53,444 nt of DNA, from contig JACVZY010000040.1 of the NCBI GenBank assembly GCA_014654705.1, positions 1 through 53,444 on the forward strand, written 5' to 3'. The first letter of the stretch is position 1; the number at the start of each line of letters is the position of its first letter. Both the position numbers and the translations under genes were made by a program. Positions 18,101-53,444 of this stretch are shown here, in pieces. Under the pieces are notes generated by a model. It did no database searches and had not been told where the DNA came from. It saw nothing but the letters and a program-made list of their open reading frames with translations. Source of the stretch: Ignavibacteria bacterium (GTDB lineage: Bacteria > Bacteroidota > Ignavibacteria > Kapaibacteriales > UBA4661).

Positions 18101-20488
18101 ATTAACAAAGTAAACGTAGGCTCCTACACCGTTACCCCGACTCTAGCGGGATACACCTTCACTCCGACAAGCCGCACGGTTTCTTTAACCAATGTCCAAA
18201 ATCCAGTTTCGCCTACTGTGTACGGCATTGCGAGTAATATCAACTTTACCGCAACGCCAACTCCGCTCCTCACCGTAAGCCCACAAACGCTGACCATTGC
18301 GGCTGCTGGGCAAAGCAACATCAGCATTGCGATAACGGGCAATGTGGCGTGGACAGCCAGCAGCAATCAAGCATGGGCGACCATCACTCCACAAAGCGGC
18401 AGCAATAATGGAACGATAACCTTGAACGTGGCGCTCAACCCCACTGCCACGCAGCGCACAGCAAGTATTACGATTTCGGGTGGTGGCATTACCAGAACTG
18501 TCGCCATCACCCAAGGCGCGGGAACGGTAACTCTCGCAGCCCCTGTCGCCACTGCCGCCACGAACATTGCAGGCTCAGGAATGCTCATGAATTTCACGGC
18601 GAACTGGCTCGCCGTGGCAGGTGCAACGGGCTATCGGATTGATATTGCGACGGACAGCACATTTACGCTGCTTGTGGCAAATAATCTATCGGTATCCGGA
18701 CTATCCTACACAGCGCTCGGTTGGGTCTTGAAGCCGTATTACTACCGTGTTCGTGCTGTGAATGCGACAACAACAAGCCCGAACTCAAACGTGATTGTCG
18801 TCACGCCTCCCGCGGCGGCGGCCCTGAATGTTAGCCTTCAAACGCTTTCCACAACAGCAAGCCAAAGCACAAGTTCAGCAACAATTACTTCCAACGTTGC
18901 ATGGACGGCAAGTAGCAATCAAGCATGGGTAGCGCTTCAGCAAACGAGCGGTAGCGGGAACGGAACACTCAGCTTCACCATCAGCACCAATACGACCACG
19001 AGCGCACGAAGCGCAATCATTACTATTTCGGGCGGCGGCATTACCAGAACCATTTTGATAGTACAATCCGGCGCAGCAGCCTCGCTCACGGTGAGTCCGG
19101 TTGCCTTTGCTCCATCCTCAGCTGGAATAAGTAATTTTCCGGTAGCTGTTACCGCCAACGTCGCATGGACAGTGAGTAGCAATCAAGCATGGGCGACCGT
19201 TTCTCCCTCAAGCGGCACAAACAACGGCACATTCGCTCTCACCGTTGCTGCGAATGCTGCGACGACCCAACGAACAGCCACGCTCACTATTTCGGGCGGA
19301 GGAATTACGCAAACGATTACTATTACTCAAGCAGGAGAAAGCGTTACAAACACTCTCAACACAAACATCTTCCAAATCAATGCGGGTGCTGTGCCGGCTG
19401 TGAACGGCGCATATCCTGTCATTGTTACCGCCAACGTTGCATGGACGGCTTCAAGCAATCAGCCGTGGGCAACAGTTTCGCCTGCAAGTGGTACGGGAAA
19501 TGCAAACGTAACGATTCAAGTACAAACTAATACGACGACTCAACAGCGCACAGCCGTTGTAACCTTTGTCGGTGGCGGTATTACCAAAACTGTTACCGTC
19601 ATACAAGCCGGTGCAACCTCAGCACTTGCCGCACCGACGATTACGTTCATTACGGTTCTCGGCACGACCTCCTTCCGCATCAATTGGCAGGCAGTGGCGG
19701 GCGCTGTGTCGTATCAATCAACTGTTGCTCTCGACGCACAATTTACGCAGGGTGTTAGCAATGGAAACACGACCACAACCAGCTTCACAGCAACAGGTCT
19801 GACGAGCAACACGCTCTATTACTACCGCGTTCGTGCAGTTGCGGCAGACGGCACGTTTGGAGAATGGTCGGGCACATTGTCCTATAGAACTCCTCCTGTA
19901 CCGCCAACAGCGCTTGCCGTAACGAATATCACCGCATCTTCGTTTACATTCAATTGGACAAGTGTACCCGGCGCGACACGTTATGATGGAGAAATTTCGG
20001 CAAACTCTACTTTTTCACCTATTCGGGCGGCTTTTGGTACAAGTGTTGGGAATCCTGTTGCTACCAGCTTCACAATGACGATTACCAATCCACCCCTTAC
20101 ACCGGGAGCTACCTATTACTACCGTGTGAAAGCATCCGTGGGCTTGAGCACAAGTTCATACTCCAATGTCGTTTCCTTTACCGTACCAGCACTTGCGCTC
20201 ACGCTCAAGACCAGTCCTAATCCAAGTGCTGATATTCTGCGCGTGGAGATAGAAATTGCCGAAAGTGAGATGGTGCAAAATGCCGAAGCAAAAGAACCAC
20301 TTGTGGTGCGGCTCATGGATGCACGAGGAGTTGTTCTGCAAGAGCGCACGCTGTCGTCGGGCACGCTCAGCACCACAAGCACAGAGTTTGACGTTCACAC
20401 CTTGCATCCGGGCACATATTTCGTTGAAGTCCGCTCGGAGTCTGGCAAACTCAATCTTCGCCGCACCGAGAAGTTCATTAAGCAATAA
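15119..20488 (+). CDS. Secreted multidomain T9SS protein with beta-propeller, BACON and FN3 domains
   Basis: A 1789-residue exported protein. Order: signal peptide (1-27, AGAVLVLCLAFLLPF); charged low-complexity region (90-130); sortilin/BNR-type beta-propeller (about 172-870) with repeated WRSTNKGQSW-like Asp/Ser-box motifs; carboxypeptidase-regulatory-like domains (about 872-1045); BACON 1 (about 1050-1138); FN3 (about 1140-1235); BACON 2-4 (about 1235-1500), each with NVAWTASSNQAW-type cores; two FN3 domains (1501-1690); and a T9SS type A sorting domain (about 1691-1789, starting SPNPSADILRVEI). It would cross the inner membrane by Sec and the outer membrane by T9SS. BACON and FN3 suggest mucin or polysaccharide contact; no catalytic domain is evident. 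A strong AGGAGGA lies 8 bp before the ATG. A second propeller protein follows. Confidence 0.85.
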   Translation: MRPLQPSAIAGAVLVLCLAFLLPFHNPLQRLGYTTPSQAPSPTLKTNGKENVSALSGIQQPSQTELPATSIKTPSKQIPAQKEQVRHSKRGDKERRAALDEENQENEEDEEKGEHPGYQEQLLTMLRDPKTGEIPEGIGYREREFLRNLPSRSGSLRELGKEKGTAELQASSLVWQARGPLNIGGRTRTVTIDISNENIILAAGVGGGGIWRSTNKGQSWTRTTSNPQAPNATSLVQDKRPGKQNIWYCGTGEFFSSGFPTKMQGILKSVNGGLTWQSLPSTAGLSTLQNVFSVVTQPANLLQDEVLAATNGGIIRSVDGGTTWTTVIPSSTINARTDVAVSSTGVLYAVVSDANRRIYRSTNGITWVDISAPNFQSSTQSMQRGVLAVAPSNPNVVYMAFSTPYGTSGIHLWKYNYLSGNGSGSGGVWEDRTNNVINSPVVNLPYGTQGGYDMLLGVYPQNENVVFLGGVSMYRSMDGFQTPSQVTGNAGIHSDHHAITFFSDGRALGANDGGVYISAGSALQAGTLQWSSLNSGYINTQFYHAAIDEQTSGSNVVMGGMQDNGTYLTATSGLSAWQYTGGGDGVYSAITKWGTNRMVYSSYQNGNIYSRMILNSVGSLSNYSTSKIDPINAIPRMFIHPYFLDPNSDSVMYYPSGRDLWRHDNLPSIPATGYDRITGWKQFASIAPGTITTIAAAKGATTRLYVGSSGSVMRIDNARLASPTAVNVSIGKRFPSFGNVQSIAIDPTNADRAIVVFSNYNVQSLFYTTDAGNTWQPVGGNLEQFPDGTGNGPACITAAIVNYQGKATYFVGTSAGLYSTTTLNGMSTTWMLEDGVAPGTAIMHIAKRDIDGMVAVATHGTGVYSTFLGGVPPVSTVSLTGFVRDNGSPAQPIQGVTVSLSNGLQAVTDASGAYSFPNLAKNVYSVSVTLPNGYYTATKTVLKDLTQQSSTQDFTLLPMQITGKITLNAVGLANVSVSAGAGGTALTNGLGVYTINKVNVGSYTVTPTLAGYTFTPTSRTVSLTNVQNPVSPTVYGIASNINFTATPTPLLTVSPQTLTIAAAGQSNISIAITGNVAWTASSNQAWATITPQSGSNNGTITLNVALNPTATQRTASITISGGGITRTVAITQGAGTVTLAAPVATAATNIAGSGMLMNFTANWLAVAGATGYRIDIATDSTFTLLVANNLSVSGLSYTALGWVLKPYYYRVRAVNATTTSPNSNVIVVTPPAAAALNVSLQTLSTTASQSTSSATITSNVAWTASSNQAWVALQQTSGSGNGTLSFTISTNTTTSARSAIITISGGGITRTILIVQSGAAASLTVSPVAFAPSSAGISNFPVAVTANVAWTVSSNQAWATVSPSSGTNNGTFALTVAANAATTQRTATLTISGGGITQTITITQAGESVTNTLNTNIFQINAGAVPAVNGAYPVIVTANVAWTASSNQPWATVSPASGTGNANVTIQVQTNTTTQQRTAVVTFVGGGITKTVTVIQAGATSALAAPTITFITVLGTTSFRINWQAVAGAVSYQSTVALDAQFTQGVSNGNTTTTSFTATGLTSNTLYYYRVRAVAADGTFGEWSGTLSYRTPPVPPTALAVTNITASSFTFNWTSVPGATRYDGEISANSTFSPIRAAFGTSVGNPVATSFTMTITNPPLTPGATYYYRVKASVGLSTSSYSNVVSFTVPALALTLKTSPNPSADILRVEIEIAESEMVQNAEAKEPLVVRLMDARGVVLQERTLSSGTLSTTSTEFDVHTLHPGTYFVEVRSESGKLNLRRTEKFIKQ
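18269..19618 (+). repeat. Four BACON-encoding repeats with near-identical DNA segments
   Basis: Four copies of a module of about 260 bp lie at about 18269-18532, 18821-19078, 19079-19345 and 19346-19618; an FN3 module separates copy 1 from copy 2. The segment encoding AWT(A/V)SSNQAW recurs almost base for base (AGCAATCAAGCATGGG in three copies), as does the one encoding ISGGGIT. Such tracts can recombine and change the copy number. Confidence 0.75.
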
Positions 20489-34529: not shown

Positions 34530-35108
34530 TTATTTAGAAGCATTGTCCAGAGCCATATTCAGCCTCAGCACATTAATGCGCTCCTGCCCGAAAATACCGA
34601 ATTGCGGCGACTCTACCGCACGCTCCACAAGCTGTGTGAGTGCTTGCGTTTGTACATCGTTATATGCACGCGCTTTTGCTACTCGCGCCACTTGCAGCCT
34701 CGCTGCTTCAGGACTGATATGCGGGTCTAAGCCACTTCCCGAAGCAAATGCCATTTCGCCCGGCACATCTTGTCCGGCAGCAAGACCATTGGTGGTGCGG
34801 AAAGCTGCGCGGCGCTCCTGCACGAGGTCTTGCAGCGCTTTGCTCGTGGGACCTTTGTTACTTGCGCCGCTTGCCACGGTGCCGTAATCACACGCCGATG
34901 GGCGCGACTGAAAATAAATCACGCTGTCGAATTTTTGTGCTAAGAGTTCCGAGCCAAGTGCTTGATTTTGTGCGCCCTTCAGGATGCTACCGTTAGCTTT
35001 TGCATTGAAGAAGCCTTGAGCGATGCCTGTTACGGCAAGCGGATACAAAACGCCTGTAAGCAGCGTCATTACAAGGAAGAGGCGAAGAGCGATGAGAGTC
35101 GTTTTCAT
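34530..35108 (-). CDS. kdpC: Potassium-transporting ATPase subunit C
   Basis: A 192-residue protein with one N-terminal membrane helix (RLFLVMTLLTGVLYPLAVTGIAQ) and the KdpC periplasmic domain (SRPSACDYGTVASGASN, SGLDPHISPEAARLQVARVA). KdpC stabilises the KdpAB pump and helps capture ATP/K+. Length matches E. coli KdpC (190). It is split from kdpB by an outer-membrane porin gene, not directly adjacent as in E. coli. Confidence 0.93.
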   Translation of the reverse strand: MKTTLIALRLFLVMTLLTGVLYPLAVTGIAQGFFNAKANGSILKGAQNQALGSELLAQKFDSVIYFQSRPSACDYGTVASGASNKGPTSKALQDLVQERRAAFRTTNGLAAGQDVPGEMAFASGSGLDPHISPEAARLQVARVAKARAYNDVQTQALTQLVERAVESPQFGIFGQERINVLRLNMALDNASK

Positions 35109-35140
35109 GGTTGCTTAAAAAAATGTCGATTGAAGATTCA

Positions 35141-36256
35141 TTAAAAAGAAAAAGCTAGGGAGGTAACTACAAAGCCATCATTCATGCGCGGCGCGGCGTT
35201 TTCGGTCGGATAAATGGCATCCCGCGACGAGAACCACCGCCCTTCTATGCGCCAGAGTAGATTTGTAGTCAAAGCAACGTCAATATTTGCCGATATGCCC
35301 AAGGTCTGGAAATTATTTGCAGTTCCGGTAGAAATAAGTACACCTTGCGGGTCGCTGTAATACTCAGCTCGCGCCGCAAGCGTAATGCGCTCTCCTGCAG
35401 CGTACTTTGCTATCATAGCAGCTCCGAACCATACAGGAAGAGTGGTGTTGAGGCGTTGCTGCACGCCAACATCAAAGAGCAGCGCGAGGCTGAGTTTTTC
35501 TGAAAGCCCGATTTGCGCGTAGAAATTGTTAAAATATCGCATTTGCCGTGCAGCCGAATCGGGCTGATCATTACCGATGTAGGTACTCCAATTCACAAGT
35601 ATATTTGATGAGGGCTTCCACTGCACTTGTGCTCCAAATGATTTATCGCTGTTGGTTTCACGGATAATTTGCCAACCGTTTAGCATGAGTACGCTCAGAA
35701 TCCATTCACTGCTTGGAGTCCACGTAAGTTTCGCACCCGTTTCATAGTACGGCGAATAATCCGCAACAATAGTGCGAGAGTACGTCCAGTTATCTTTGGA
35801 AACAGCCGATTCAAAGCCGATGTGCGAAGCAAAAACACCCGCATCAAGCCAAAGGTTTTCCGCAGCGCAGTAGCCCACATTTGCCTCGAAAATATTCCGC
35901 CAAAACTGCGGCTCGGCGGCGTAGTTCGACTCCACATATGAGCCGACTTGTGCGGCAAAGCGTCCGCGCACACGGTCAGATGAATAAGCGAGTGAAAGAA
36001 ATGCGAAGTTGATGCTGAACTCATTGTGATATAGCGGTTGTGTCGTGAACGCACGAGTTTTTGCGGGCGGTGTGGCAAACGCAAGTGCATAATACGCATC
36101 CACAAAGCCACTCACGACCAAATTTGCTTGCGGCGATACAGGCAGGACGCTCACGGCGGAATCATTGGGGATTGTTGCCGCTTTATTGCTGCCAAGCTGA
36201 ACAAATACCATCACCACAAGGAACAACCATGAGCGAATTGATTTGAAAAAAGACAT
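35141..36256 (-). CDS. OmpL-like beta-barrel porin in the kdp operon
   Basis: A 371-residue outer-membrane barrel protein. A signal peptide (SWLFLVVMVFVQLGSNKAA) is followed by a series of amphipathic beta strands with aromatic girdles (VVSGFVDAYYALAF, FSINFAFLSLAYSSDRVRGRFAAQVG, ARAEYYSD) and a terminal phenylalanine (VVTSLAFSF), as needed for BAM assembly. It resembles the putative beta-barrel porin-2/OmpL-like family. Its place between kdpB and kdpC (86 and 32 bp gaps) suggests a channel that brings K+ across the outer membrane when the ion is scarce. The ATG at 36256 is preferred over a TTG two codons upstream. Confidence 0.8.
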   Translation of the reverse strand: MSFFKSIRSWLFLVVMVFVQLGSNKAATIPNDSAVSVLPVSPQANLVVSGFVDAYYALAFATPPAKTRAFTTQPLYHNEFSINFAFLSLAYSSDRVRGRFAAQVGSYVESNYAAEPQFWRNIFEANVGYCAAENLWLDAGVFASHIGFESAVSKDNWTYSRTIVADYSPYYETGAKLTWTPSSEWILSVLMLNGWQIIRETNSDKSFGAQVQWKPSSNILVNWSTYIGNDQPDSAARQMRYFNNFYAQIGLSEKLSLALLFDVGVQQRLNTTLPVWFGAAMIAKYAAGERITLAARAEYYSDPQGVLISTGTANNFQTLGISANIDVALTTNLLWRIEGRWFSSRDAIYPTENAAPRMNDGFVVTSLAFSF

Positions 36257-36342
36257 ACACAATCTATTTGTTTATGAAAAATGAACAGAACACAAGTAAT
36301 TGTCGCATTTTCTATGAGCAAACCGAACGAAGAAAGAAACAA

Positions 36343-38445
36343 TCAGACTAAATGCAGCGCCACAACAAGAATATCAATCAATTTAATACCTACAAACGGA
36401 ATCGCTACGCCGCCCACGCCGTAAATGAGAAAATTCCGCCATAGCAGCGTCGATGCCGGAAGCGGCTGATACGCCACGCCACGCAATGCCAGTGGAATGA
36501 GTGCAACAATAATAAGCGCATTGAAAATAATTGCCGATAAAATTGCACTTTCCGGCGTTGCTAATTGCATAACGTTGAGCGCAGATAAAGCACCTTCGCC
36601 ATTTGTCATGTACAATGTTGCAAAAATTGCGGGAATAATTGCAAAGTATTTTGCCACGTCGTTTGCAATGCTGAACGTTGTCAATGCACCGCGTGTCATC
36701 AGGAGTTGTTTGCCGATATGGACTACATCGAGCAATTTCGTGGGATTACTGTCCAAATCCACCATATTTCCGGCTTCGCGGGCTGCTTGTGTACCGGAGT
36801 TCATTGCCACGCCCACATCTGCCTGAGCGAGTGCTGGTGCGTCATTTGTGCCGTCGCCGACCATTGCCACGAGATGTCCCGCAGCCTGTTCGTCGCGTAT
36901 GCGCTTCAGTTTTGTTTCCGGCGTTGCCTCGGCGATATAGTCGTCAACACCTGCTTCGGCAGCAATAGCGGCGGCAGTGAGCGGGTTGTCGCCCGTTATC
37001 ATCACCGTGCGGATGCCTGCTTTGCGCAGTTCAGCAAAGCGTTCTTTTATACCGCCTTTAACCACATCTTTGAGTTGAATCACGCCCAGCACCGTTGCTT
37101 TGTTTGCAACAACTTCTGCCACGACAAGCGGCGTTCCACCTGTTTTGGCAATGTCTTCCACTGCGCGTTTCGTATCTGGCGGAAAAGCTGCGCTGTAAGA
37201 ATCAACGTACTTTTCAATCATATCGGCAGCGCCTTTGCGAATGGAACGCCCACCCACATCTACGCCGCTCATGCGCGTTTGCGCTGTGAAGGGGATGAAC
37301 GTTGCCTGATGCAAGGCAGCGTTGTGCTCAGAGTCGTCATGCCCACGAATACCAAAGTTTTCTTTTGCTAAGACGACAATGGAACGCCCTTCCGGGGTTT
37401 CATCGGCAAGCGAGGAAAGCTGTGCAGCTTCGGCGAGACGCTTGGGGTCTATGCCGCCTGCGGGAATGAACGCCGATGCCATGCGGTTTCCCAGCGTTAT
37501 TGTGCCTGTTTTGTCCAGAAGCAGTACATCCACATCGCCTGCCGCCTCGACAGCTCGCCCACTTGTCGCCAAGACGTTGCGCTGAATGAGCCTGTCCATG
37601 CCGCTTATGCCAATCGCAGAAAGCAAACCGCCGATGGTAGTCGGGATAAGACACACCAGAAGAGCAACCAACACCGGAACACTAAGCAGCGAAGTCGTCA
37701 ATCCCGATGCGGTCTCGGAGTACGCGGCAAAACCTTTGAGCGTTACGACAGCCAGCAAAAATACAATCGAAAGCGCTGCCAGAACGATACTGAGCGCAAT
37801 TTCATTCGGTGTTTTCTGGCGTTTTGCGCCTTCCACAAGTGCAATCATGCGGTCGAGGAAGGAATCACCCTGCTCGGCGGTGATGCGGACGAAGATTTGG
37901 TCGCTTATCACTTGTGTCCCGCCCGTCACGGCACTGCGGTCGCCGCCCGCCTCACGAATAACAGGTGCAGACTCGCCCGTGATGGCTGATTCGTTCACGC
38001 TGGCAATGCCCTTGATAACTTCGCCGTCACCCGGAATTACGTCGCCCGATTCACAGATGACCACATCGCCGCGCTTCAGTTCGGTCGCAATGACACGGTG
38101 TTCGGTGGAAGAAGGATAATTCGTCAGCCGACGCGCCATTGTGCCCGTGCGTGTCTTGCGAAGCGAATCTGCTTGCGCTTTCCCACGCCCTTCGGCAATG
38201 GCTTCAGCAAAATTAGCAAAAAGCACCGTGAACCAGAGCCAGAGCGTGATTTGGAGGTTAAACGTCGAAAATGCACCGCTCGCGAGGTCACGGAAAAACG
38301 TAAAGGTCGAAAGCACCGCGCCCACTGCCACGAGAAACATGACGGGATTTTTCACCTGTACGCGCGGGTCGAGTTTGGTAATGGATTCCCACGCCGCGCG
38401 GCGTGTAATGGCGGGGTCGAAGAGAGATTTTACTTGCGTTGACAT
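36343..38445 (-). CDS. kdpB: Potassium-transporting ATPase ATP-binding subunit B
   Basis: A 700-residue P-type ATPase (E. coli KdpB 682). Seen: ITGESAPV (actuator TGES), the phosphorylation motif [15 protein letters not shown], and the hinge motif [21 protein letters not shown] with [19 protein letters not shown]. Seven membrane helices are in the expected places. It hydrolyses ATP to drive K+ through KdpA. The gene lies 30 bp after kdpA and 86 bp before the porin. Confidence 0.95.
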
Positions 38446-38475
38446 GATATTCGGTTTTGAGTAATGAGAATTGAT

Positions 38476-40167
38476 TTAGAACGTCTTCCCCGCATTCATC
38501 AGCAAATGCTCCACTATCGGACCCAGCGAAAGTGCCGGAAAGAACGTGAGCGCACCGACGATGAGAATAACGGCAATCAGCAAGACGGCAAAAAGCGGCT
38601 TATCGGTCGGGAACGTGCCAAGCGACGGCGGCGTATATTTTTTGCCGACCAAACTTCCCGCAATCGCCAGAGTAGGCAGAATCACGCCGAAGCGCCCCAC
38701 CAGCATACCGATACCAATCGCAATGTTGTAAAACGGCGTGTCCACCGTTAGCCCCGCAAAGGCGCTTCCGTTATTGCCTGCTGCCGACGTGAAAGCGTAG
38801 AGAATTTCCGAAAAGCCGTGCGCTCCTTGATTATTCAGGCTGCTGAGTCCTTGCGGAATAAGAACGGCAATCATTGTTCCGATGAGTATCACCGTGCTCG
38901 GCGCAAGAATAGTTATCATCGCCATTTGCACCTCGAATGCTTCTATTTTTTTGCCCAAATACTCAGGTGTACGCCCAACCATCAAGCCGGCGATAAAGAC
39001 CGTGATGATGATGAACATGAGCATACCGTACATTCCCGCGCCAACACCGCCGAAAATGACTTCGCCGAGCATCATGTTTAGCATCGCCATTCCGCCCGCG
39101 AGTGGTGAAAAGCTGTCGTGCATGGCGTTTACCGAACCATTTGAGGCGACCGTGGTGGTCATGCCCCAAAGAACGCTGTTTGCCACGCCGAAACGCTGCT
39201 CTTTGCCTTCCATTTGGACAGAAGTTTGCAATACGGTATTGTAGCTTGTTTCCGACCACAACGACACTGCTAAGACTACCAGCAAAACCGCCAGCATAGC
39301 AGCAAAAATTGTCCACCCCTGGCGCACGGAACCGACCATTTTACCATAGGTGTAGGTCAATGCTGACGGAATAAGGAGAATAGCAAGCACTTGGAGAAAA
39401 TTGCTGAACGGCGTGGGATTCTCAAAGGGATGAGCGCTATTCACACCGAAAAAGCCGCCACCATTGGTGCCAAGCTGCTTGATGGCGATTTGCGAAGCAG
39501 CAGGACCAAGCGGAATCACTTGTGAACGTCCTTCGAGCGTTGTTGCAGAAACATAGCTTCCAAAGGACTGTACAACGCCTTGACTGACGAGCAGAATCGC
39601 CAAAAGAAGCGAAAGCGGAAGCAAAATGTAAAGCGTCGTGCGCGTCAAATCCACCCAAAAATTGCCAATACTTGCGGCGTGCTTACGAGCAATACCCCGC
39701 GTCAGTGCTATCATTACGGCAATACCTGTGGCTGCGCTCACGAAATTTTGTACGCCCAAGCCCAGCATTTGCGTAAGGTAAGAAAGCGCTGCCTCACCGG
39801 AATACGCCTGCCAGTTGGTATTGGTCATAAAACTCACGGCGGTATTAAAAGCGAGGTAGCCGGATGTGCCGCCTGTGCTCTGCGGATTGAGTGGTAAAGC
39901 GCCCTGCGCAAGCATCAGCACAAAGACCGCGAGAAATCCGAGCGCATTGAAAGTGAGAAGCGCAAAAGCATATTCTTTCCACGACATTTCTTCGTAGTCA
40001 TTCACGCCGGAGAGTTTATAGATCAAACCTTCAAGCGGTTTCAATACAGGCGTAAGCCATGTTTTTTGACCGCAAAACACCGTTGCCATAAAGCCACCCA
40101 AAAGCGGCGTAATGGCGATGAGAAGCCCGAAATAGAGGGCGATTTGGAGAAATTCTAAGGGTTGCAT
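38476..40167 (-). CDS. kdpA: Potassium-transporting ATPase potassium-binding subunit A
   Basis: A 563-residue channel-like subunit (E. coli 557) with ten membrane helices and four selectivity-filter pore loops, including TNGGGFFGVNSAHPFENPTP. The N-terminal FGLLIAITPLLGGFMATVF and the SAAGNNGSAFAG loop are typical. KdpA selects and translocates K+ at micromolar concentration. The start codon follows an AGGAGG ribosome site that overlaps the kdpF stop codon. Confidence 0.95.
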   Translation of the reverse strand: MQPLEFLQIALYFGLLIAITPLLGGFMATVFCGQKTWLTPVLKPLEGLIYKLSGVNDYEEMSWKEYAFALLTFNALGFLAVFVLMLAQGALPLNPQSTGGTSGYLAFNTAVSFMTNTNWQAYSGEAALSYLTQMLGLGVQNFVSAATGIAVMIALTRGIARKHAASIGNFWVDLTRTTLYILLPLSLLLAILLVSQGVVQSFGSYVSATTLEGRSQVIPLGPAASQIAIKQLGTNGGGFFGVNSAHPFENPTPFSNFLQVLAILLIPSALTYTYGKMVGSVRQGWTIFAAMLAVLLVVLAVSLWSETSYNTVLQTSVQMEGKEQRFGVANSVLWGMTTTVASNGSVNAMHDSFSPLAGGMAMLNMMLGEVIFGGVGAGMYGMLMFIIITVFIAGLMVGRTPEYLGKKIEAFEVQMAMITILAPSTVILIGTMIAVLIPQGLSSLNNQGAHGFSEILYAFTSAAGNNGSAFAGLTVDTPFYNIAIGIGMLVGRFGVILPTLAIAGSLVGKKYTPPSLGTFPTDKPLFAVLLIAVILIVGALTFFPALSLGPIVEHLLMNAGKTF

Positions 40168-40176
40168 TTGTTCCTC

Positions 40177-40266
40177 CTACAATCGTTCGGGATACAGCAT
40201 TGCATAGAGCAAATATCCCAGAAGGAGGACGGAAAGCACGAGACCGATGATATATTCGAGAGCCAT
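40177..40266 (-). CDS. kdpF: Potassium-transporting ATPase subunit F
   Basis: A 29-residue one-helix protein on the minus strand, beginning MALEYIIGLVLSVLLLGYLL and ending YAMLYPERL. This is the KdpF pattern of a short hydrophobic helix with a terminal Tyr-Pro-Glu-Arg/Lys (ALLYPERF-like). It lies first in the operon, 9 bp before the kdpA ATG; its stop codon TAG is part of the AGGAGG site of kdpA, so translation is likely coupled. KdpF sits against KdpA and stabilises the complex. Confidence 0.92.
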   Translation of the reverse strand: MALEYIIGLVLSVLLLGYLLYAMLYPERL

Positions 40267-40309
40267 TGTGATTTGCTTTCGTTCTGTGAAACACGAGTGA
40301 ATTACAAAA

Positions 40310-40379
40310 GCAAAACTACGGCGTATTTTCTCAAGAGGCGTTCAAATCTGAGGCGGGAAGTCTAAAGATTTTCTCAAGA
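40310..40379 (-). promoter_or_regulatory. kdp operon control region with 12-bp direct repeats
   Basis: Two exact copies of TCTTGAGAAAAT (minus strand) lie at 40379-40368 and 40336-40325, start to start 43 bp apart (about four helix turns). A Bacteroidota -7 box TAGTTTTGC (40318-40310) follows the second copy by 6 bases and is 44 bp before the kdpF ATG. The canonical -33 TTG is not well spaced (24 or 13 bases), consistent with an activator-dependent promoter. KdpE is the natural candidate protein. Confidence 0.5.
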
Positions 40380-40388
40380 AAGCATTTA

Positions 40389-41864
40389 TTATTCCAAACA
40401 TCCCGCAGGCGGCACAAAACCTGTTCCCAGTTTCTCGATTTGTTCGGCAATCGTCAGCAATCGCCAGTCCTGCCAGCGCTTGCCATGCACGGAAACACTT
40501 ATCGGAAGTCCATCGCTGCTCATACCTATCGGCACGGTAACGATGGGCGTAGCTTGCAAGACCGTCGTGCAGGCGAAAGGCGCGTGTGCTTCGGTGTAAG
40601 GGATTGTTGCGCCGTCAATCTTGAGCGGCGTCCCCATACGCACGTGTGGGAATGCGGCATGAGCGGCAGTGGGTGTGAGCCAAATATCAACTTCATCAAA
40701 AAACCGCTCTGTGGCTTGTACAATCGCGTCCCTACGGTCGAGAACGTGCGCAAAGCCGCGTGGTGATTGGAACAGTCCCTTCACAAGCGACGCAGAACCG
40801 CCACGAAAATTTGCATAATGGAACGCCGCAAGAAATGGCGCTATGAGCGATTTCGGTATCATGGCGGGAATTTCTGTTAAGGATTCCATAGTCATCAAGC
40901 GCCCCCACACATCAAGCGCATCATCTGTAGCCCGCTTTGTGTCGAGGTCGGCAGGAGCTTTTTCGATAAGTGTGCAGCCTTGTTCGCGTAAGCGTACGAG
41001 CAATGTGGAAAAAACACGCTCTGTGTCGCGTGAAACCTTGCGTTCGCCAATCGTGGATGAGTACGCAATCCGTAGCCCTTTGAGCGGAACATCTGCCACT
41101 GTAAGCGTGTTCTGAAGCGGTACGGGTGGGTTTTGCCACATTCGGTCGTCGTACCCCCAGAGCAATTCCAAGAGCATTTTGGCATCATCTACATTGCGCG
41201 CCATTGGTCCAACGGTTATCATGGAGCGAAGCATTTTAGGTGAACCGGGCGGAGTAATATGCCCAAAGTCCGATAAACTCCGCTCTGTGGGGCGAAACCC
41301 CACTACGCCGCAATAGTGCGCCGGAATCCTGAGTGAACCGCCTATATCGCTACCTATCTCCAATGGCGTGAAGCCTGCCGCCAAAGCCGCTGCCGAGCCG
41401 CCGGAACTTCCGCCAACGACATGGTTTTCGTTGTACGGGTTATTTGTTCTGCCCCAAAATGTGCTTTGCCAATCAAACGCAAACATAGGCAAATTGGTTT
41501 TGCCAAGCAAGATTCCACCCGCCTTCTTTAGCCTTTCGACCATTGTAGCATCGAAATCAGGCACGTGCGACCGTAAAAGCGGGCTCGCAAACGACGTTCT
41601 CATGACCTTTGTGGCAAAGGTATCTTTTACGGTAAAAGGAATACCGTGCAGCGCACCTGTGCTTTCCCCACGCGCCAGTGCTGCATCTGCTTCAGAAGCC
41701 TGCTTCAAAGCGCCTTCTGCGTCTATGATGCAAATGGCGTTAATACGCGGATTGTGCTGTTTGATGTGCCGAAGCAGCGTTTCGATCAACTCGCGTGAGG
41801 TGAGGTCGCGGGCGTGAATGCGACGCGAAATCTCGCGGAGTGAGGTAAAATTGATGTTGTCCAT
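40389..41864 (-). CDS. Amidase signature family hydrolase
   Basis: A 491-residue amidase with the complete Ser-cisSer-Lys triad: Lys80 (FTVKDTF), Ser154 (GGSSGGSAAALAAG) and Ser177 (GSDIGGSLRIPA), close to the spacing in GatA. The C-terminal part (HAPFACTTVLQATPIVTVPIG) also fits the family. It is a general amidase that hydrolyses an amide bond; the substrate is unknown. It is unlikely to be GatA, as no gatB or gatC is near and the Glu-tRNA binding features cannot be verified. It lies on the same strand just upstream of kdpF, but a 122-bp gap with its own promoter-like site separates them. Confidence 0.85.
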   Translation of the reverse strand: MDNINFTSLREISRRIHARDLTSRELIETLLRHIKQHNPRINAICIIDAEGALKQASEADAALARGESTGALHGIPFTVKDTFATKVMRTSFASPLLRSHVPDFDATMVERLKKAGGILLGKTNLPMFAFDWQSTFWGRTNNPYNENHVVGGSSGGSAAALAAGFTPLEIGSDIGGSLRIPAHYCGVVGFRPTERSLSDFGHITPPGSPKMLRSMITVGPMARNVDDAKMLLELLWGYDDRMWQNPPVPLQNTLTVADVPLKGLRIAYSSTIGERKVSRDTERVFSTLLVRLREQGCTLIEKAPADLDTKRATDDALDVWGRLMTMESLTEIPAMIPKSLIAPFLAAFHYANFRGGSASLVKGLFQSPRGFAHVLDRRDAIVQATERFFDEVDIWLTPTAAHAAFPHVRMGTPLKIDGATIPYTEAHAPFACTTVLQATPIVTVPIGMSSDGLPISVSVHGKRWQDWRLLTIAEQIEKLGTGFVPPAGCLE

Positions 41865-46402: not shown

Positions 46403-47095
46403 CTACCACGAAATTTCTTTTCTATCGCGCAGAAACTTCCCCGTGAGCGATTGTGGAGCTTCCGTAGCGAGCCACACCGCCGTGTCTGCACCTTGCGACA
46501 CGCTTCGTGGTGCACCTGCTCCGCCCATTTCGGTTTGCACCCAGCCGGGACACATTGCGTTCACGGCGATTCCCTCAGAAGCGAGTGCGGAAGAGAGTTG
46601 TAACGTAATCGCATTCATGGTCGTTTTGGAAATGCAATATGCCGGAGCAAATGTACTTGCACCGTTTGTAATTTGCCCACCCGAACTGGAAACATTGATA
46701 ATACGACCTCCGCGCTGCATGAGCGGCAAAAATGCTTGCACCACAGTCAGCGCACCAATAGCATTTGTCTGGAGCGTACTCAAAAGCAATGACTCCGAAA
46801 CAGCAAGAATGCTCTGCGAATGGTCGAGCATCACGCCCGCATTGTTGATTATCACGTCCAAATGCTGTATTTTGGTCGAGACCTGCCGATGCGCCTCCCG
46901 AATGCTTGCGCTGTCGCTCACGTCCATTGGCACAAAGGTACAAACGTACTTCTGCCGAACAAGCCGTGATGCGGTTTCTGAACCGGCATGAGGATTACGC
47001 GCTGCAAGCAGCACATGGTAACCTTTTGCACAGAGTTCGCGGGCAATTTCCAAACCGATGCCTTTGCTTGCACCGGTAATAAGAGCAGTTTTCAT
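46403..47095 (-). CDS. Short-chain dehydrogenase/reductase
   Basis: A 230-residue classical SDR. Cofactor motif TGASKGIG (7-14), NNAG motif (VIINNAGVMLD), catalytic Ser in INVSSSGGQ and Tyr153-x3-Lys157 (YCISK). The C-terminal CPGWVQTEMGG fits carbonyl reductase-like SDRs. NAD(P)H-dependent oxidation or reduction of an unknown alcohol or ketone. The start at 47095 begins the Rossmann fold, with 63 bp to the divergent Crp-type regulator, a likely controller. Confidence 0.88.
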   Translation of the reverse strand: MKTALITGASKGIGLEIARELCAKGYHVLLAARNPHAGSETASRLVRQKYVCTFVPMDVSDSASIREAHRQVSTKIQHLDVIINNAGVMLDHSQSILAVSESLLLSTLQTNAIGALTVVQAFLPLMQRGGRIINVSSSGGQITNGASTFAPAYCISKTTMNAITLQLSSALASEGIAVNAMCPGWVQTEMGGAGAPRSVSQGADTAVWLATEAPQSLTGKFLRDRKEISW

Positions 47096-47158
47096 GGTAT
47101 CATCTGAATTTTTTTGAGAAAAATACGACACATCTTCCTTTTTACGTTTCCCTGCTCT

Positions 47159-47761
47159 ATGTCCGCAAAACCTCTTCATACATCATTATCGTCACTCCAC
47201 GCTTTTATTTCGGAAAAGATTACCCTCACTGAAAAAGAATGGCTGTTCGTCGCCGAGCGATTTGAAACGGTTTCTATCAAAGCCAATATGCTGCTTCTAC
47301 GCGAGGGGCAGGTCTGCGGGCATTTGTACTTTGTAAACAAAGGGCTGATGCGGTTTTTTATTACCACCAGCGACGGCAAAGATACAACAAAGTTTTTCAC
47401 TCCCGAACACCAGCTTTTCACCTCGCAGCAGTCCTTTTCCACACAAACACCTGCCCGTGAAAATATCGAAGCCCTCGAAGACGCGGAACTGCTGGCGGTT
47501 TCTCACGCTGCCCTTCAACACATCTACAACGACGTTCCCAAATGGCATACTCTTATTCGTCGCGTTTTGCAAGAGGTAAACGGCATGACCGAACGAATCT
47601 ATATGGACAGCATTACCATCACTGCCGAAGAGCGCTACCGCAGGCTTCTTCAAAACGAACCGGAAATTGCCCTGCGTGCTCCACTCAAGCATATTGCGTC
47701 CTATTTGGGCGTTACACCAGAGAGTTTGAGCCGCATTCGGAAAAAACTTTCCCAAGCCTAA
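47159..47761 (+). CDS. Crp/Fnr family transcriptional regulator
   Basis: A 200-residue regulator. The cyclic-nucleotide-binding barrel (about 30-120, MLLLREGQVCGHLYFVNKGL) lacks the strict cAMP phosphate-binding cassette, so the ligand is unknown. The C-terminal helix-turn-helix is PLKHIASYLGVTPESLSRIRKKL. It resembles the widespread Bacteroidota small Crp-like proteins. It diverges from the SDR gene and precedes the SRPBCC and MBL-fold genes by 101 bp, so it likely controls one or both. The start at 47159 opens a usual N-terminus. Confidence 0.87.
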   Translation: MSAKPLHTSLSSLHAFISEKITLTEKEWLFVAERFETVSIKANMLLLREGQVCGHLYFVNKGLMRFFITTSDGKDTTKFFTPEHQLFTSQQSFSTQTPARENIEALEDAELLAVSHAALQHIYNDVPKWHTLIRRVLQEVNGMTERIYMDSITITAEERYRRLLQNEPEIALRAPLKHIASYLGVTPESLSRIRKKLSQA

Positions 47762-47862
47762 ACGAACTTACCATACATCAAGTGTTTAGTTCGTGCATGG
47801 TTGTAGTTTTGGGTGAACTTGAATTCACGAAGCATTCTTTTTCACCAACACCTACAAGCACT

Positions 47863-48342
47863 ATGATACCACAACCATCCGCCCCCAGCCCTCGCCATTT
47901 CTGGCATAGCACCACCACGAACGCAAGCCCTGACGATGTTTGGAGCGTGTGGACAAATGTTTCAGAATGGCATCTCTGGGACAAAGGCTTGCAATCAGCA
48001 TCACTAGAAGGCGCATTCAAACTTGGCGCAGTTGGAAAGCTCGTTAGTCTGAACGGCACAACGTCGCGCTTTACTATCACAGAGTTCAGCGACCAACACT
48101 CGTACACTTTCTCAACAGCCCTTCCGCTTGCACGCCTGAATGTAAAACGCTTTTTCGAGAGTTTCGGCACCGAAACCCGTTTTACGCATGAAGTCTGGTT
48201 TGACGGTGTGTTGGGAGGCATTTTTGCCATGCTCTTGGGCAAAAATTTTATGCGCCTTCTCCCCTCCGTCATGGAAGAAGTCAAGCGTCTGGCGGAAGCA
48301 CGGGCAAACGCGCAAACTGCACCACTCCACCAAACACTATGA
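47863..48342 (+). CDS. SRPBCC/polyketide-cyclase-like protein
   Basis: A 159-residue START-like fold protein. It starts with HFWHSTTTNASPDDVWSVWTNVSEWHLWDKGLQSASLEG, the SRPBCC opening (helix, D-x-W-x-x-W). It has a hydrophobic ligand cavity by family, but no catalytic residues are evident. Its stop codon overlaps the ATG of the next gene (ATGA), so translation is coupled to the MBL-fold hydrolase. An earlier frame start is possible, but the homology begins near here. Confidence 0.8.
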   Translation: MIPQPSAPSPRHFWHSTTTNASPDDVWSVWTNVSEWHLWDKGLQSASLEGAFKLGAVGKLVSLNGTTSRFTITEFSDQHSYTFSTALPLARLNVKRFFESFGTETRFTHEVWFDGVLGGIFAMLLGKNFMRLLPSVMEEVKRLAEARANAQTAPLHQTL

Positions 48343-49403
48343 ACCGCCGTCAGTTCGTCCGTACCAGTATTCGTGCGGGTGTGAGCGTTAGCGCCGGAAT
48401 TGCACTTGCCGGAATTATGTTTCCAGAAACGCTTGGCACAAGAGAAGCAACTACCATTTTGTCACCTTCACCCCCTTCCACCATGCTCACTACCGCACCC
48501 AATACCACGCATCCGTCCCTTCTCCACGAGTCCGACTGCTGCGTCACCGTCCATATCTCCGAGCGCGTCCGCGTTCATGCTTTGCGTTCAGGCTGGGTGC
48601 AAGTTCGCCCGCCGCACCGCGAACACACAGGCATCGAAGCCTTGCGACTTCCATCCATTTTGCTCAATTCCCAATGGACAGAAAAAATGCCAGTCTGGAT
48701 GTGGCTTATTGAGCACCCCGACGGTACATTTCTCGTTGACACGGGCGAAAACACGCGCGTTCACGAACCGAACTATTTCGGTGATGCCAAAGGCGATGCC
48801 TGGGTGAACCGCAGAATTTTACAACTCGACATACCACCCGAAGAAGAGCTTGAAAGCCACTTACAGCGCTTGGGCATAGCGGAGAACAAGATTGATGCAG
48901 TCATTCTCACTCACGGACACCTTGATCATACCGACGGCTTGCGCTTCCTACCGTCACCGGAAATTCTTTTCCCCAAAATTGAATGGGAAAAACCCTTTGG
49001 CGTTGCGAAAACGACCTTTCCTACATGGCTCAAACCCCGCTTCATTACGCACGACGCGGCAACATCGCTGGGCGAGCTACCCGCGAAGGACAATCCATTT
49101 CAGGCAGCACACCGCATTGCATCCGGCTTATACACCATTCCCACACCCGGACACACCTTTGGTCATCAGTCTGTCTTGCTCATCGAAAACGACACGGCAT
49201 ATTGCTTCGCGGGCGACGTTTCCTTTTCGGAGAAGCAATTATTAGCAGGCGGAGTGGCGGGCATTTGCGTCAGCCCTGATGACGCACGGGAGACATATTC
49301 ACGCTTCAAAAAACTTGCCGGACGTATTCCGCTTGTGTATATGCCCTCGCATGATGTGGAGTCGGCGATGCGACTTCAAGAAAGGCGAACAATGCCCGTG
49401 TAG
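48339..49403 (+). CDS. Tat-exported MBL-fold hydrolase, lactonase-like
   Basis: A 354-residue metallo-beta-lactamase-fold protein. A twin-arginine signal (MNRRQFVRTSIRAGVSVSAG) precedes the domain. Zn ligands: THGHLDH (His192, His194, Asp196, His197), a later His in PTPGHTFGHQ and Asp in CFAGDVSF, and His in MPSHDVESA. Spacing is like AHL-lactonase (AiiA) and related hydrolases; the substrate cannot be set. It is co-transcribed with the SRPBCC gene. Confidence 0.85.
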   Translation: MNRRQFVRTSIRAGVSVSAGIALAGIMFPETLGTREATTILSPSPPSTMLTTAPNTTHPSLLHESDCCVTVHISERVRVHALRSGWVQVRPPHREHTGIEALRLPSILLNSQWTEKMPVWMWLIEHPDGTFLVDTGENTRVHEPNYFGDAKGDAWVNRRILQLDIPPEEELESHLQRLGIAENKIDAVILTHGHLDHTDGLRFLPSPEILFPKIEWEKPFGVAKTTFPTWLKPRFITHDAATSLGELPAKDNPFQAAHRIASGLYTIPTPGHTFGHQSVLLIENDTAYCFAGDVSFSEKQLLAGGVAGICVSPDDARETYSRFKKLAGRIPLVYMPSHDVESAMRLQERRTMPV

Positions 49404-49536
49404 CGCAATAGAAGCCACAGCCGCCGCAAGGATAAAAATTGCCTTTACACCTTACAAAACCTTGTTCTATGACCAAAAAGTGTGTAAATTATTCTGAATG
49501 AATTTTTTACCATCCCCAGTTTATTTTGGAGGAATT

Positions 49537-49977
49537 ATGAGGAATGTCTTGTCCGGCATCGCCACTTTATGCCTGATGCTGGTATCGTATAGCGTATCCT
49601 TCGGGCAAAATGCCGATGCTATCACAGGCATTTGGTACACCGAAGACGATAAATCACTTGTGGAAGTCTGGAAATATAACGGTTTGTACTACGGAAAAAT
49701 TATTTGGGTGCGCGACTCGCTTGATGAAAAGGGGAAAATTAAATTAGATAAAAACAATCCCAAAGAAGCCCTTCGCAGCAAGTCTGTCATCGGGCTGCAA
49801 ATGCTGAATAATTTGAAATACGAAAACGGTGAGTGGCGGGATGGAAAAATTTATGACCCGGAAAGTGGGAATGAATATAGTTGCAAAGCGAATCTCAATG
49901 GCTCCACTCTTGATTTGCGCGGTTATATTCTCGGTATGCCGTTTCTGGGACGAACAACCAAGTGGCGCAAAAAATAG
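49537..49977 (+). CDS. DUF2147 family exported protein
   Basis: A 146-residue protein with a signal peptide (VLSGIATLCLMLVSYSVSFGQ). The domain follows the DUF2147 pattern: ITGIWYTEDDKSLVEVWKYN, YYGKIIWV, IGLQMLNNLKY, GKIYDPESGNEYSC and LRGYILGMPFLGRTTKWRK. These small lipocalin-like beta-barrels are periplasmic or outer-membrane-linked; function unknown. GGAGG precedes the ATG at 49537. A strong terminator follows at 50014. Confidence 0.85.
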   Translation: MRNVLSGIATLCLMLVSYSVSFGQNADAITGIWYTEDDKSLVEVWKYNGLYYGKIIWVRDSLDEKGKIKLDKNNPKEALRSKSVIGLQMLNNLKYENGEWRDGKIYDPESGNEYSCKANLNGSTLDLRGYILGMPFLGRTTKWRKK

Positions 49978-50003
49978 ATTCTCTTTCGCCAGAGTCATTT
50001 AGA

Positions 50004-50050
50004 CTACGCTGGCAAACGCCGCATGAACTCTTCGAGTTTGTGCGGCGTTT
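50004..50050 (-). pseudogene. Relic of the 3' end of an MBL-fold gene
   Basis: On the minus strand, the codons P-H-K-L-E-E-F-M-R-R-L-P-A plus stop match the end of the MBL-fold gene at 51235 (KPHKLEDFMRRLPM plus stop). The DNA copies match at 40 of 47 bases (50004-50050 vs 51235-51281) and share the TAG position. Nothing of the gene upstream of these codons remains. The two copies flank the alkC-like gene as direct repeats. Confidence 0.75.
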
Positions 50051-50056
50051 TTTTTT
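50014..50056 (+). terminator. Rho-independent terminator of the DUF2147 gene
   Basis: A 17-bp stem (50014-50030 with 50034-50050, two G-U pairs, no mismatch), a 3-base loop and nine T residues. It lies 37 bp after the DUF2147 stop. It is formed from the MBL-fold relic: at each of the four stem-forming bases where the relic differs from the intact gene end, the change makes a Watson-Crick pair. Confidence 0.85.
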
Positions 50057-50083
50057 ATGTTTTTCTTGAATTTCAACGAGATT

Positions 50084-51175
50084 TCAGGCAACCTCTCCAA
50101 CGACCTCAATGTGCGTTTCAGCACATTCTACACCATTGACGATAATGGTAAAGCGATGAGTGCCGGCATAATGTTTACGAGTGGTACGCTGTTGAAAAGA
50201 AATCTTGCGCTGAACATGCACTTGTTCGCCCTCGGAATATTTTCGCTCGTGAATAAAAAACACCTTGCGCGTCGCTTGACCATTCGATTTGACATAATAG
50301 ACACCGTATTCTAATCGTATATTTTCCGCTTTTTCGCTCTGCACGTCAAATGAAACATTGACCGATGCGCCAATCGCCACCGAAGACTGATGAAATCGAA
50401 GATTGTGGATAGTAAACGATGGCATAGCTCCAAACCCAAAAAGTTGCATTGCCTTGGGATTTCCGCGCTTGAGAAGTGTTCGTAATCCATGCTTCACTAT
50501 CCAGTCCGTGTGAGGATGTACGCCTATCCAACGTTCCGCAATATTGAGCACGAGTGCAGGATGGTCTTTCGCAATATCATTGAGATTATTTGCGACGCTC
50601 CGCCGAACGTAATCAGAATCATCCGCCTTGAGAAGTTCCAAAATCGGTAGTATCGGCGCAGGGTCGCGCTGAAACTCTTTGAGTGCCATGCCCCATGGCA
50701 AACGTGGGCGGCAGCCTTCACTGGCAAGCCGACGTACATGATGATTTGGATGCTTTGCCCATTGGAGCATTTGTGCCATTATTTTTGCCGGATTACGCTG
50801 AAGAAAAGGGCGAATTGCAAATTCCGAACTGGAATACTGCGTGAATAATTCTAATGCCGAAAGAGAAATTTCTTCGTCACCCAAACCGTATTGTTCTACA
50901 AAATCGGGAAAAAACATATACGGAAAGCCCTGACATTCGGGCGCAACCAACCGTAGAATAGCTATTGCTTGAGCATAATCCTGTGGCAAGAATCGCCGCA
51001 GCCCCCGCGTAATATGGTGCATTCGCTCTTTTAATTCCCTATCCTCCCATGCACTATCTAGGATCCAATTGATAAACGCTTCTCCATCGAAGCCTACGTT
51101 TAACCGTTGTATCTTCTCTGCAAATACGCGGACAAATTCGGGGTTATAGACATTTTTGAGCTTAAAATCTTCCAT
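50084..51175 (-). CDS. AlkC-like DNA alkylation-repair glycosylase
   Basis: A 363-residue HEAT-like repeat protein. Residues about 1-250 carry the alpha-helical repeats, including the AlkC-type motif WAKHPNHHVRRLASEGCRPRLPWG and SDYVRRSVANNLNDIAKDHPAL; a beta-rich C-terminal domain (about 270-363, FDVQSEKAENIRLEYGVYYV ... TIIVNGVECAE) resembles the Ig-like domain of AlkC. AlkC excises 3-methyladenine and 3-methylcytosine without base flipping. The ATG at 51175 is preferred over an earlier TTG. It lies 59 bp downstream of the MBL-fold gene on the same strand and is flanked by a 47-bp direct repeat, which suggests insertion or duplication. Confidence 0.85.
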   Translation of the reverse strand: MEDFKLKNVYNPEFVRVFAEKIQRLNVGFDGEAFINWILDSAWEDRELKERMHHITRGLRRFLPQDYAQAIAILRLVAPECQGFPYMFFPDFVEQYGLGDEEISLSALELFTQYSSSEFAIRPFLQRNPAKIMAQMLQWAKHPNHHVRRLASEGCRPRLPWGMALKEFQRDPAPILPILELLKADDSDYVRRSVANNLNDIAKDHPALVLNIAERWIGVHPHTDWIVKHGLRTLLKRGNPKAMQLFGFGAMPSFTIHNLRFHQSSVAIGASVNVSFDVQSEKAENIRLEYGVYYVKSNGQATRKVFFIHERKYSEGEQVHVQRKISFQQRTTRKHYAGTHRFTIIVNGVECAETHIEVVGEVA

Positions 51176-51234
51176 AGCAAACAAATATTCGATGAGAAAT
51201 ACAACAAAATCCCAATATATTGAGAGCCTTTCTT

Positions 51235-51939
51235 CTACATCGGCAAACGACGCATGAAGTCTTCGAGTTTGTGAGGCTTTTGTATGAGCGGTGCACCATG
51301 CCCGAAGCAGATAATGTCAGGCTTCAGTGCTGCCAGTTTGCGAATAGAACGCCGATTTTGCGCAACATCGGTCGTAAAAGGCACGGGCGGTTCGTTCAAA
51401 CCCGGAAGTCCTGTCATCAGATTCATTCCGTTCAGCACATCGCCCAGAATCAAGCATTTGTCAGTCTCTCGCCAAAAAGAAATATGCCCCGCTGAATGAC
51501 CGGGCGAATCCAGCACACGAAAGCCCGCCACCATGTCGCCCTCTTGCAAGCGCCGTGCGACCGTGTATGCGGGACCTGACCACACGCGCATCAACAAACC
51601 CAATACACCTTGTGCATCAGGGCTATTCGCCAACCCTCGTTCCATTGGTTCGGCATCGCGCTCACCGCACCAGAGCGGAACACCGTAAGCATCGCAGACA
51701 GCCTTGCTCGCGCCTTGATGGTCGGGGTGAACGTGCGTGAGGGCGTGTGCGGTGAGACGCTTGGTTTTGTGCTCGTCTTCGGCAAAAAATCGTTTCAGTG
51801 TCCGCAGAATACGATTGGTCATGTAGCGCGTACCGGCATCAATCAGCACGACCTCGTTGCCGTCGGCAATAAGATAGGTGTTGATAATGTTGGGCGGGAA
51901 GCCGGAAAGTTGCCAAAGGTTTGGGGCTATGAGGCGCAT
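51235..51939 (-). CDS. MBL-fold metallo-hydrolase
   Basis: A 234-residue MBL-fold enzyme. Zn motif HVHPDHQG (His69, His71, Asp73, His74), a later His in LDSPGHSAGHISF, Asp in CLILGDVLNG and His in CFGHGAP. It is close to the small cytoplasmic MBL hydrolases that cut thioesters or lactones. No signal peptide. The start at 51939 is chosen because the domain begins there (MRLIAPNLWQLSG). Its last 47 bases are repeated at 50004-50050. Confidence 0.88.
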   Translation of the reverse strand: MRLIAPNLWQLSGFPPNIINTYLIADGNEVVLIDAGTRYMTNRILRTLKRFFAEDEHKTKRLTAHALTHVHPDHQGASKAVCDAYGVPLWCGERDAEPMERGLANSPDAQGVLGLLMRVWSGPAYTVARRLQEGDMVAGFRVLDSPGHSAGHISFWRETDKCLILGDVLNGMNLMTGLPGLNEPPVPFTTDVAQNRRSIRKLAALKPDIICFGHGAPLIQKPHKLEDFMRRLPM

Positions 51940-52001
51940 AATTGCTGAGGTTTTGGAAGATTGCAGTGGACGATGATACGAAAGCACAATTTACAAAAGA
52001 C

Positions 52002-52033
52002 TTGGTTGTGAGCAAGAATCATTTGTAGATTTG
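52002..52033 (+). promoter_or_regulatory. Bacteroidota-type promoter of the esterase-like gene
   Basis: TTG at 52006-52008 (or 52002-52004), 17 (or 21) bases, then TAGATTTG at 52026-52033. Predicted start near 52040 leaves the ATG at 52099 with a leader; an earlier ATG at 52045 would be leaderless. Confidence 0.45.
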
Positions 52034-52098
52034 TAGCGATTCTCATGCAGAGTCTCTATTTTTATAGTTGCCAAATTTCCTTCCTATTTTTTCATGCT

Positions 52099-53444
52099 AT
52101 GCTTTACTCTCGTTTTGTATCTACGACAATAATTTGCTGTATGAGCTTCTTTTTTATGGTGCTTTCTGCTTGCTCACAACAAGACACTCCCACGCACGAA
52201 ACACAAGAAGCGATTACCAGCTACATTCGCTCACATCACATCCCTGTTAATCTTGGTGCTGATGCAGGGTTGGCAAATTGGCAATCTTTCGATTCGCTTA
52301 TCGGCAGCGCCCGTGTTATCGGCTTAGGTGAGGCTACGCACGGAACCGAAGAGTCAGACGCAATAAACTGCGCCATTATCAAACACCTTGTTGAAACCAA
52401 AGGGTGTACGATGATTTGTGTGGAAAACAATGCAGATATAACAATCCGTGTGAATCGGTATGTTCTTGGCGGCAGTGATAACGACCAACTTTTTCTAGGA
52501 AACTCCCGCTCTATTCAACTTCTTATTGATTGGGTTCGTTCGTACAATGCTCAGAATAAAGCAAAGGTACGTTTCTATGGTCTGAATTTTTACGGCGTTG
52601 ACCAAATTACGGAGGCAATACTGGAACGGATACACACAGCAAATTCCGCGTATTATGATTCAGCCCGAATGAAATTGGATGGCTTTAGAACGTATTCTGC
52701 ACCGAACGGAATTCGTGTCGGCTTTACCATCTCTCCTGATAGTATGCGTTCTTTACACCGCTCCGCAGTTAATGTCTTGAACTACATTAAGATGAATAAC
52801 CATCGCTTTTCAGCCGGACTAGATTCCTATAGCCTAAGTGAACTCATGCAATTTTTGAATCTTCTTGTTCAAAGTGTTTCAGTGCCTGACCCTAACCAAG
52901 AAAAACCATCAAGTGTTCAAATTCAAATATTCAAAACTCTCGGTATGGCAACAAAAAGATACGACTACTCAATCTTCGATGCCTACCGAGATTCATGTAT
53001 GTTTGAAAATGCACGTTGGGCTATAGAGCAAACCCCGAAACTCTCTCCAGTGGTTGTGTGGGCGCATAATTTGCATATAGCAAAGCGTACAGAAAATAGC
53101 AACTCACAAACACTGCCCGTGTATAAGCGGATGGGAGCATATTTACAGGACAACTACAAAACAGCATACAAAACAATCGGATATACCTTCTTTGAAGGAA
53201 AATATATTGCCATGAACTTGCAAGGAAAAGTAAGTAAAATTGAATCAGAAACACCCCCCATTGGCAGTATTGAGCGAATGTTACAACAACCGACCATACC
53301 AGCATTTTTTATTTCCACACATGAATTAGCCTCAGCAGCAGAAAACTTTTTTCAAAAGCAGTTTCCAATACGTTCTGTCGGTGTATCACAGCAAGCTACC
53401 GAGTTTAGAGAGAAAGCAGCATTATCTGAATTTGATGCTCTTAT
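52099..53444 (+). CDS. Erythromycin esterase-like lipoprotein (3' end outside window)
   Basis: The frame stays open from 52099 to the last base of the window (448 codons) and is cut by it. The product starts with a lipoprotein signal: MLYSRFVSTTIICCMSFFFM then VLSAC with Cys25. It has the erythromycin esterase (Ere/SuccE) fold signature VIGLGEATHGTEE (Glu78, His81) and WAHNLHIAK (His323). Ere enzymes open macrolide lactones; many related proteins in the family have no antibiotic target, so resistance should not be assumed. As a lipoprotein it would lie outside the cytoplasm, unlike most Ere enzymes. It is AT-richer than its neighbours. It diverges from the MBL-fold gene. Confidence 0.85.
   Translation, partial: MLYSRFVSTTIICCMSFFFMVLSACSQQDTPTHETQEAITSYIRSHHIPVNLGADAGLANWQSFDSLIGSARVIGLGEATHGTEESDAINCAIIKHLVETKGCTMICVENNADITIRVNRYVLGGSDNDQLFLGNSRSIQLLIDWVRSYNAQNKAKVRFYGLNFYGVDQITEAILERIHTANSAYYDSARMKLDGFRTYSAPNGIRVGFTISPDSMRSLHRSAVNVLNYIKMNNHRFSAGLDSYSLSELMQFLNLLVQSVSVPDPNQEKPSSVQIQIFKTLGMATKRYDYSIFDAYRDSCMFENARWAIEQTPKLSPVVVWAHNLHIAKRTENSNSQTLPVYKRMGAYLQDNYKTAYKTIGYTFFEGKYIAMNLQGKVSKIESETPPIGSIERMLQQPTIPAFFISTHELASAAENFFQKQFPIRSVGVSQQATEFREKAALSEFDAL

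Follow-up and report, generated by a model that had tools for sequence, protein, structure and literature searches.

A direct repeat of an MBL-fold gene end encloses an alkC-like gene and includes a predicted terminator in an Ignavibacteria genome

The origin of bacterial terminators is seldom visible. Intrinsic (Rho-independent) terminators consist of a G+C-rich hairpin with a short loop and a run of T. Single-crossover integration or tandem duplication, for its part, can leave a truncated gene end. In Neisseria and the Pasteurellaceae, DNA uptake signals of about 9-11 nt, usually present in 1,000 copies or more, have been described as forming terminators (PMC1852404). A small literature search found no paper on terminators derived from the ends of neighbouring genes.

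The site described here lies in a window, the whole analysed stretch of 53,444 nucleotides (contig JACVZY010000040.1), from an Ignavibacteria bacterium. It shares with intrinsic terminators the G+C-rich hairpin, the short loop and the T run, placed 37 nt behind a stop codon, but its sequence, unlike theirs, shows a relationship to the end of a neighbouring coding sequence, and the other 34 terminator calls in our sample have no match that strong. As in the remnants of single crossovers or tandem duplications, direct repeats of a gene end stand on both sides of a possible newcomer gene, whereas the copies here are short, with 7 mismatches in 47 positions. The uptake-signal terminators also offer a parallel, in that a sequence of other origin would have been co-opted as a terminator; in contrast to those signals as PMC1852404 characterises them, the present sequence occurs as two copies in its genome at E ≤ 0.001. 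We propose, with a probability of about 0.85, that positions 50004-50050 are what is left of the 3' terminus of an MBL-fold gene and, in the plus direction, the intrinsic terminator of a DUF2147 gene.

The MBL-fold hydrolase gene (PF00753, Pfam E 8e-27) is intact and occupies 51235-51987 on the minus strand, and its protein is 70-74% identical in four genomes of the same genus. An alkC-like DNA glycosylase gene (PF08713) lies at 50084-51184, also on the minus strand. Its product matches the AlkC structures 5vi0 and 5vhv over residues 9-358, near full length, with E about 7e-81, and has no match to NCBIfam models at E ≤ 0.001; translation probably starts at the ATG at 51175, judging from the sequence MEDFKLKNVY, which is kept in the AlkC relative of genome G002. 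Convergent to alkC, the DUF2147 gene (PF09917, Pfam E 4.5e-31) occupies 49498-49977 on the plus strand. A second MBL-fold gene, MBL2, is found at 48339-49403 (plus strand) and is nearest to AHL-lactonase models, under their cut-offs (AiiA model, E 3.8e-22, with 78.7 bits where the cut-off is 375).

The original prediction held that a direct repeat of the MBL gene end flanks alkC and that both copies retain the last codons and TAG, and an ungapped comparison bears out all of this. Positions 50004-50050 and 51235-51281 are identical at 40 of 47 positions (85%) in the same orientation, about 1.2 kb apart, with alkC between them. Because the MBL gene runs on the minus strand from 51235 to 51987, the copy at 51235-51281 is the intact one, made of the last codons and TAG of that gene, and 50004-50050 is the relic. 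On the minus strand the relic reads PHKLEEFMRRLPA and the intact copy PHKLEDFMRRLPM, each closed by TAG in a common frame. In the MBL frame the relic as a whole reads KKTPHKLEEFMRRLPA before its stop, and an in-frame stop codon stands immediately 5' of KK. The seven differences comprise three at 50008-50010, outside the stem described below, and four within it, at 50019, 50028, 50043 and 50047. By uncontrolled scores, comparison of the flanks gave no clear similarity past the stop codon or past the T run, and no clear homology of the relic reaching further into the MBL gene on either side of the repeat.

When the MBL end was used as query, the relic was the sole other place at E ≤ 0.001 in its own 5.7-Mb genome (E 9.2e-9); the reverse search returned the MBL end at E 1.2e-8, and the next place listed from that genome had E 0.26. 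With two places at that threshold, a recurrent repeat family is rejected. The motif pair GCCGCA ... TGCGGC is hardly enriched in the genome (38 occurrences versus 30 in a reversed control). Within the order (123 genomes including its own, many represented by the best 7 candidates), no match at E ≤ 0.0001 was found outside the own genome, and at E ≤ 10 within the genus the best listed outside match (E 2.1e-4) was a terminator in G006. One pattern scan of viral contigs for closer relatives gave no match. In four relatives the MBL family C-terminus keeps a K-x-x-x-F-x-x-x-L-P pattern, which the relic peptide resembles, and the relic very probably derives from an MBL gene end, to judge by this peptide and the shared frame. 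Three other genomes of the genus contain terminator-like hairpins of the loose form GCCGC(A/G)TAAA ... GTTTRTGCGGC.

The relic stem (50014-50030 with 50034-50050, plus strand) pairs at 17 of 17 positions, two of them G-T and 8 G-C, around a loop of 3. The predicted fold energy is -25.7 kcal/mol for a 66-nt stretch and -25.1 kcal/mol for the hairpin alone. In the MBL copy, 13 of the 17 stem positions pair, and the predicted fold differs from that of the relic. The four stem differences fall in four separate pairs, and the relic has a Watson-Crick partner in each, exactly as had been noted for the four mispairs of the intact copy. The earlier description of a 17-bp hairpin plus T9 is right as to the pairs and slightly generous as to the T run (50048-50056), three T of which belong to the stem and six follow it. 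The relic thus has the sequence features of an intrinsic terminator, namely a stable G+C-containing hairpin, a short loop, a T run and a same-strand gene close upstream. The hairpin, which begins 37 nt 3' of the DUF2147 stop, is by form the terminator of that gene; the claim that it ends the convergent DUF2147 gene agrees with this form and position and is best read as a prediction from them. The possibility that the hairpin terminates alkC as well, from the opposite direction, was considered and rejected: GCCAGCG, and no T run, comes after the stem on the minus strand, so termination in that direction should be weak.

Such hairpins do not set the site apart in this genome. In a 453-kb sample (the window together with another 400 kb of its genome), 35 terminator-like calls were made, whereas two dinucleotide shuffles, counted slightly differently, yielded 7 and 11, which suggests that the genome employs such hairpins. 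Stems of 14-17 pairs occur in 26 of the 35 calls, and 25 lie 17-93 nt 3' of a same-strand ORF; the relic hairpin is ordinary in both stem length and distance from the stop. A simple scan of 47000-53444 found 5 terminator-like sites versus a shuffle mean of 7.8, hence no enrichment, and the relic site was the only one with a long stem (17 pairs, against 5-10 at the others). None of the 35 calls overlaps a coding 3' end; four overlap an ORF (at least 100 aa, by at least 15 nt), all at least 95 nt from the ORF 3' end. It is in its relation to another sequence that this call is exceptional: its best 40-nt match elsewhere in the sample is 35/40, while for the other 34 calls, not all independent since some hairpins were called on both strands and counted twice, the best match is 24-28/40 across the 453 kb and 21-26/40 within 5 kb.

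How the two copies came about is a separate matter. An MBL gene that faced DUF2147 may already have had the hairpin in its coding end. This gene would then have recombined with a second, diverged MBL end to which alkC was attached, for instance when a molecule containing both entered by a single crossover, an event that leaves direct repeats flanking the newcomer. The present MBL gene would thereby have acquired a new end, and the old end, with its hairpin, would have been stranded beyond alkC. We regard this whole mechanism, from a pre-existing hairpin in a coding end to the recombination that brought alkC, as tentative, at somewhat under an even chance. A more specific form of it, that the last MBL codons were once dual-use, coding on one strand and terminating DUF2147 on the other, mostly by means of third-position bases, is possible and rather doubtful. 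We give the same low standing to its continuation, in which alkC, arriving together with a second MBL end, split the two roles and the coding end lost the hairpin.

Within the PHKLEDFMRRLP codons, all four differences between the copies are at third positions, three silent and one Asp/Glu, a pattern expected of copies that were still coding as they diverged. Among the mispaired pairs, three offered a first or a third position, and the change is at the third in all of them; across the whole repeat, third codon positions account for 4 of the 7 differences. In simulations that ignore selection, four random stem substitutions turned the MBL copy into a 17-pair stem in 55 of 2,000,000 trials, and turned a 17-pair copy into one with exactly 13 pairs in 71,893 of 200,000. 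Taken together, the simulations and the third positions lean weakly to a hairpin lost from the present MBL end; the lean is weak because the sites are few, the codon argument is post hoc and selection after duplication could give the same result. The lack of terminator calls over coding 3' ends (0 of 35) counts against a hairpin within the coding MBL end. The whole-repeat count of third positions and the absence of any relative with MBL facing DUF2147 also weigh against the proposed mechanism. The differing sites could not be polarised from the MBL ends of relatives, which have diverged too far, and no donor or intermediate for the recombination was found.

The strongest alternative reverses this order: a plain MBL end was duplicated with the arrival of alkC, or by duplication of the MBL gene, and the non-coding copy was then selected into a terminator of DUF2147. 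This course, which we also place short of even odds, has an ordinary starting point, since in the sample at least 13 of 17 pairs are found at 43 of 356 gene ends with loops of 3-8 (17 of 356 with a loop of 3). It also accords with the improvement of pairing by all four stem differences and with the lack of coding-end terminators among the 35 calls. Against it, four of four stem changes must restore pairs, an outcome seen in 55 of the 2,000,000 trials run without selection, and the third-position pattern in the core codons, itself weak, is left without a reason. Between the dual-use order and later recruitment we judge the balance to be about even. The original prediction of a coding fragment recruited as a terminator is thus upheld in the MBL origin of the sequence, through its in-frame peptide and the family C-terminus, and in its terminator form and position; recruitment after the duplication is the part that loses its privilege, the opposite order fitting about equally well.

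Copying in the reverse direction, from an older terminator into the MBL gene end, which would now encode a degraded terminator, seems improbable to us. Terminators of similar form do occur in the genus (81-83% over about 40 nt in G005, G006 and G007, among the matches listed), and, compared with three aligned relatives, the window MBL protein is longer by one residue where the repeat begins or ends. However, the relic peptide fits the C-terminal pattern of the MBL family, which a terminator would hardly encode by chance, and the MBL ends of relatives are without such sequence.

An ordinary terminator that resembles the end of its neighbour by accident, an idea to which the loose likeness among genus terminators and the G006 match (E 2.1e-4, the best listed outside match) lend something, is the least probable of all, and chance as the origin of the repeat is very unlikely given 35/40 against at most 28/40 for the other 34 terminator calls, an E of 9.2e-9 genome-wide with the only other copy 1.2 kb away in the same orientation, and a reading frame and stop common to both copies.

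Insertion of a transposon with target-site duplication fits poorly as well, the repeats being 47 nt long and 85% identical instead of short and near-identical. The enclosed stretch contains no transposase gene; alkC fills it, and the remaining ORFs listed there lie opposite alkC or MBL, on the other strand.

Gene presence was called at E ≤ 0.001 in seven further genomes of the genus. MBL and alkC are each present in the same four (G002, G005, G006, G007), and DUF2147 in three (G002, G004, G007). A scan of genome contigs gave four MBL loci, apparently those of the same four genomes. MBL and DUF2147 occur together only in G002 and G007 (2 of 7), on different contigs in each, and in no relative were any two of the three genes on one contig; the G002 assembly is in about 680 pieces. 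Adjacency of MBL and DUF2147 without alkC, which had been set as a test, was therefore assessable in G002 and G007 only, where the genes are on separate contigs, and MBL facing DUF2147 was seen in none of the seven. The relic was seen neither 3' of MBL (four genomes) nor 3' of alkC (four relatives) or DUF2147 (three relatives), within the roughly 260-300 nt inspected; over 14 relative loci, some overlapping, the best match to its 40-nt core was 24/40.

The nearest approach to an empty site appears to be a 3,868-base contig of G002 that carries MBL, a lipoprotein-like gene, MBL2 and an SDR-like gene, although another gene in the interval and the shortness of the contig make it a less than clean one. 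The last two genes are relatives of window 48339-49403 and 46403-47179; they are adjacent in G002 and apart in the window. Neither alkC nor DUF2147 lies between MBL and MBL2 in G002; on this evidence both are plausible newcomers to that interval in the lineage of the window. It is plausible, too, that alkC was an inserted piece; loss in G002 may have occurred instead. Elsewhere, MBL2 was found in G005, on a contig other than that of MBL, and in G006 as a 60-residue piece.

We regard the repeat as genuine, an oddity of genome rearrangement confined to this locus. By form the terminator is ordinary; its origin is unusual and so far a single case, which, coming from a draft genome, leaves the general picture unchanged. 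A terminator-like copy and its related coding sequence are nevertheless preserved 1.2 kb apart with seven differences between them, so that the path from one to the other is testable in close strains.

Other features of the region were also observed. In G007, MBL is directly upstream (33 nt) of an amidase-like gene, a relative of window 40389-41864, and the genes 3' of MBL there are colinear with window 34530-41864 at 74-85% protein identity; in the window about 9.4 kb separate MBL from the amidase-like gene. We take this block to consist of potassium-transport-like genes followed by the amidase-like gene. Finally, window 18322-19590 contains repeats of 81 and 38 nt, present in four copies at spacings of 552, 264 and 276 nt, which are perhaps repeated protein domains.
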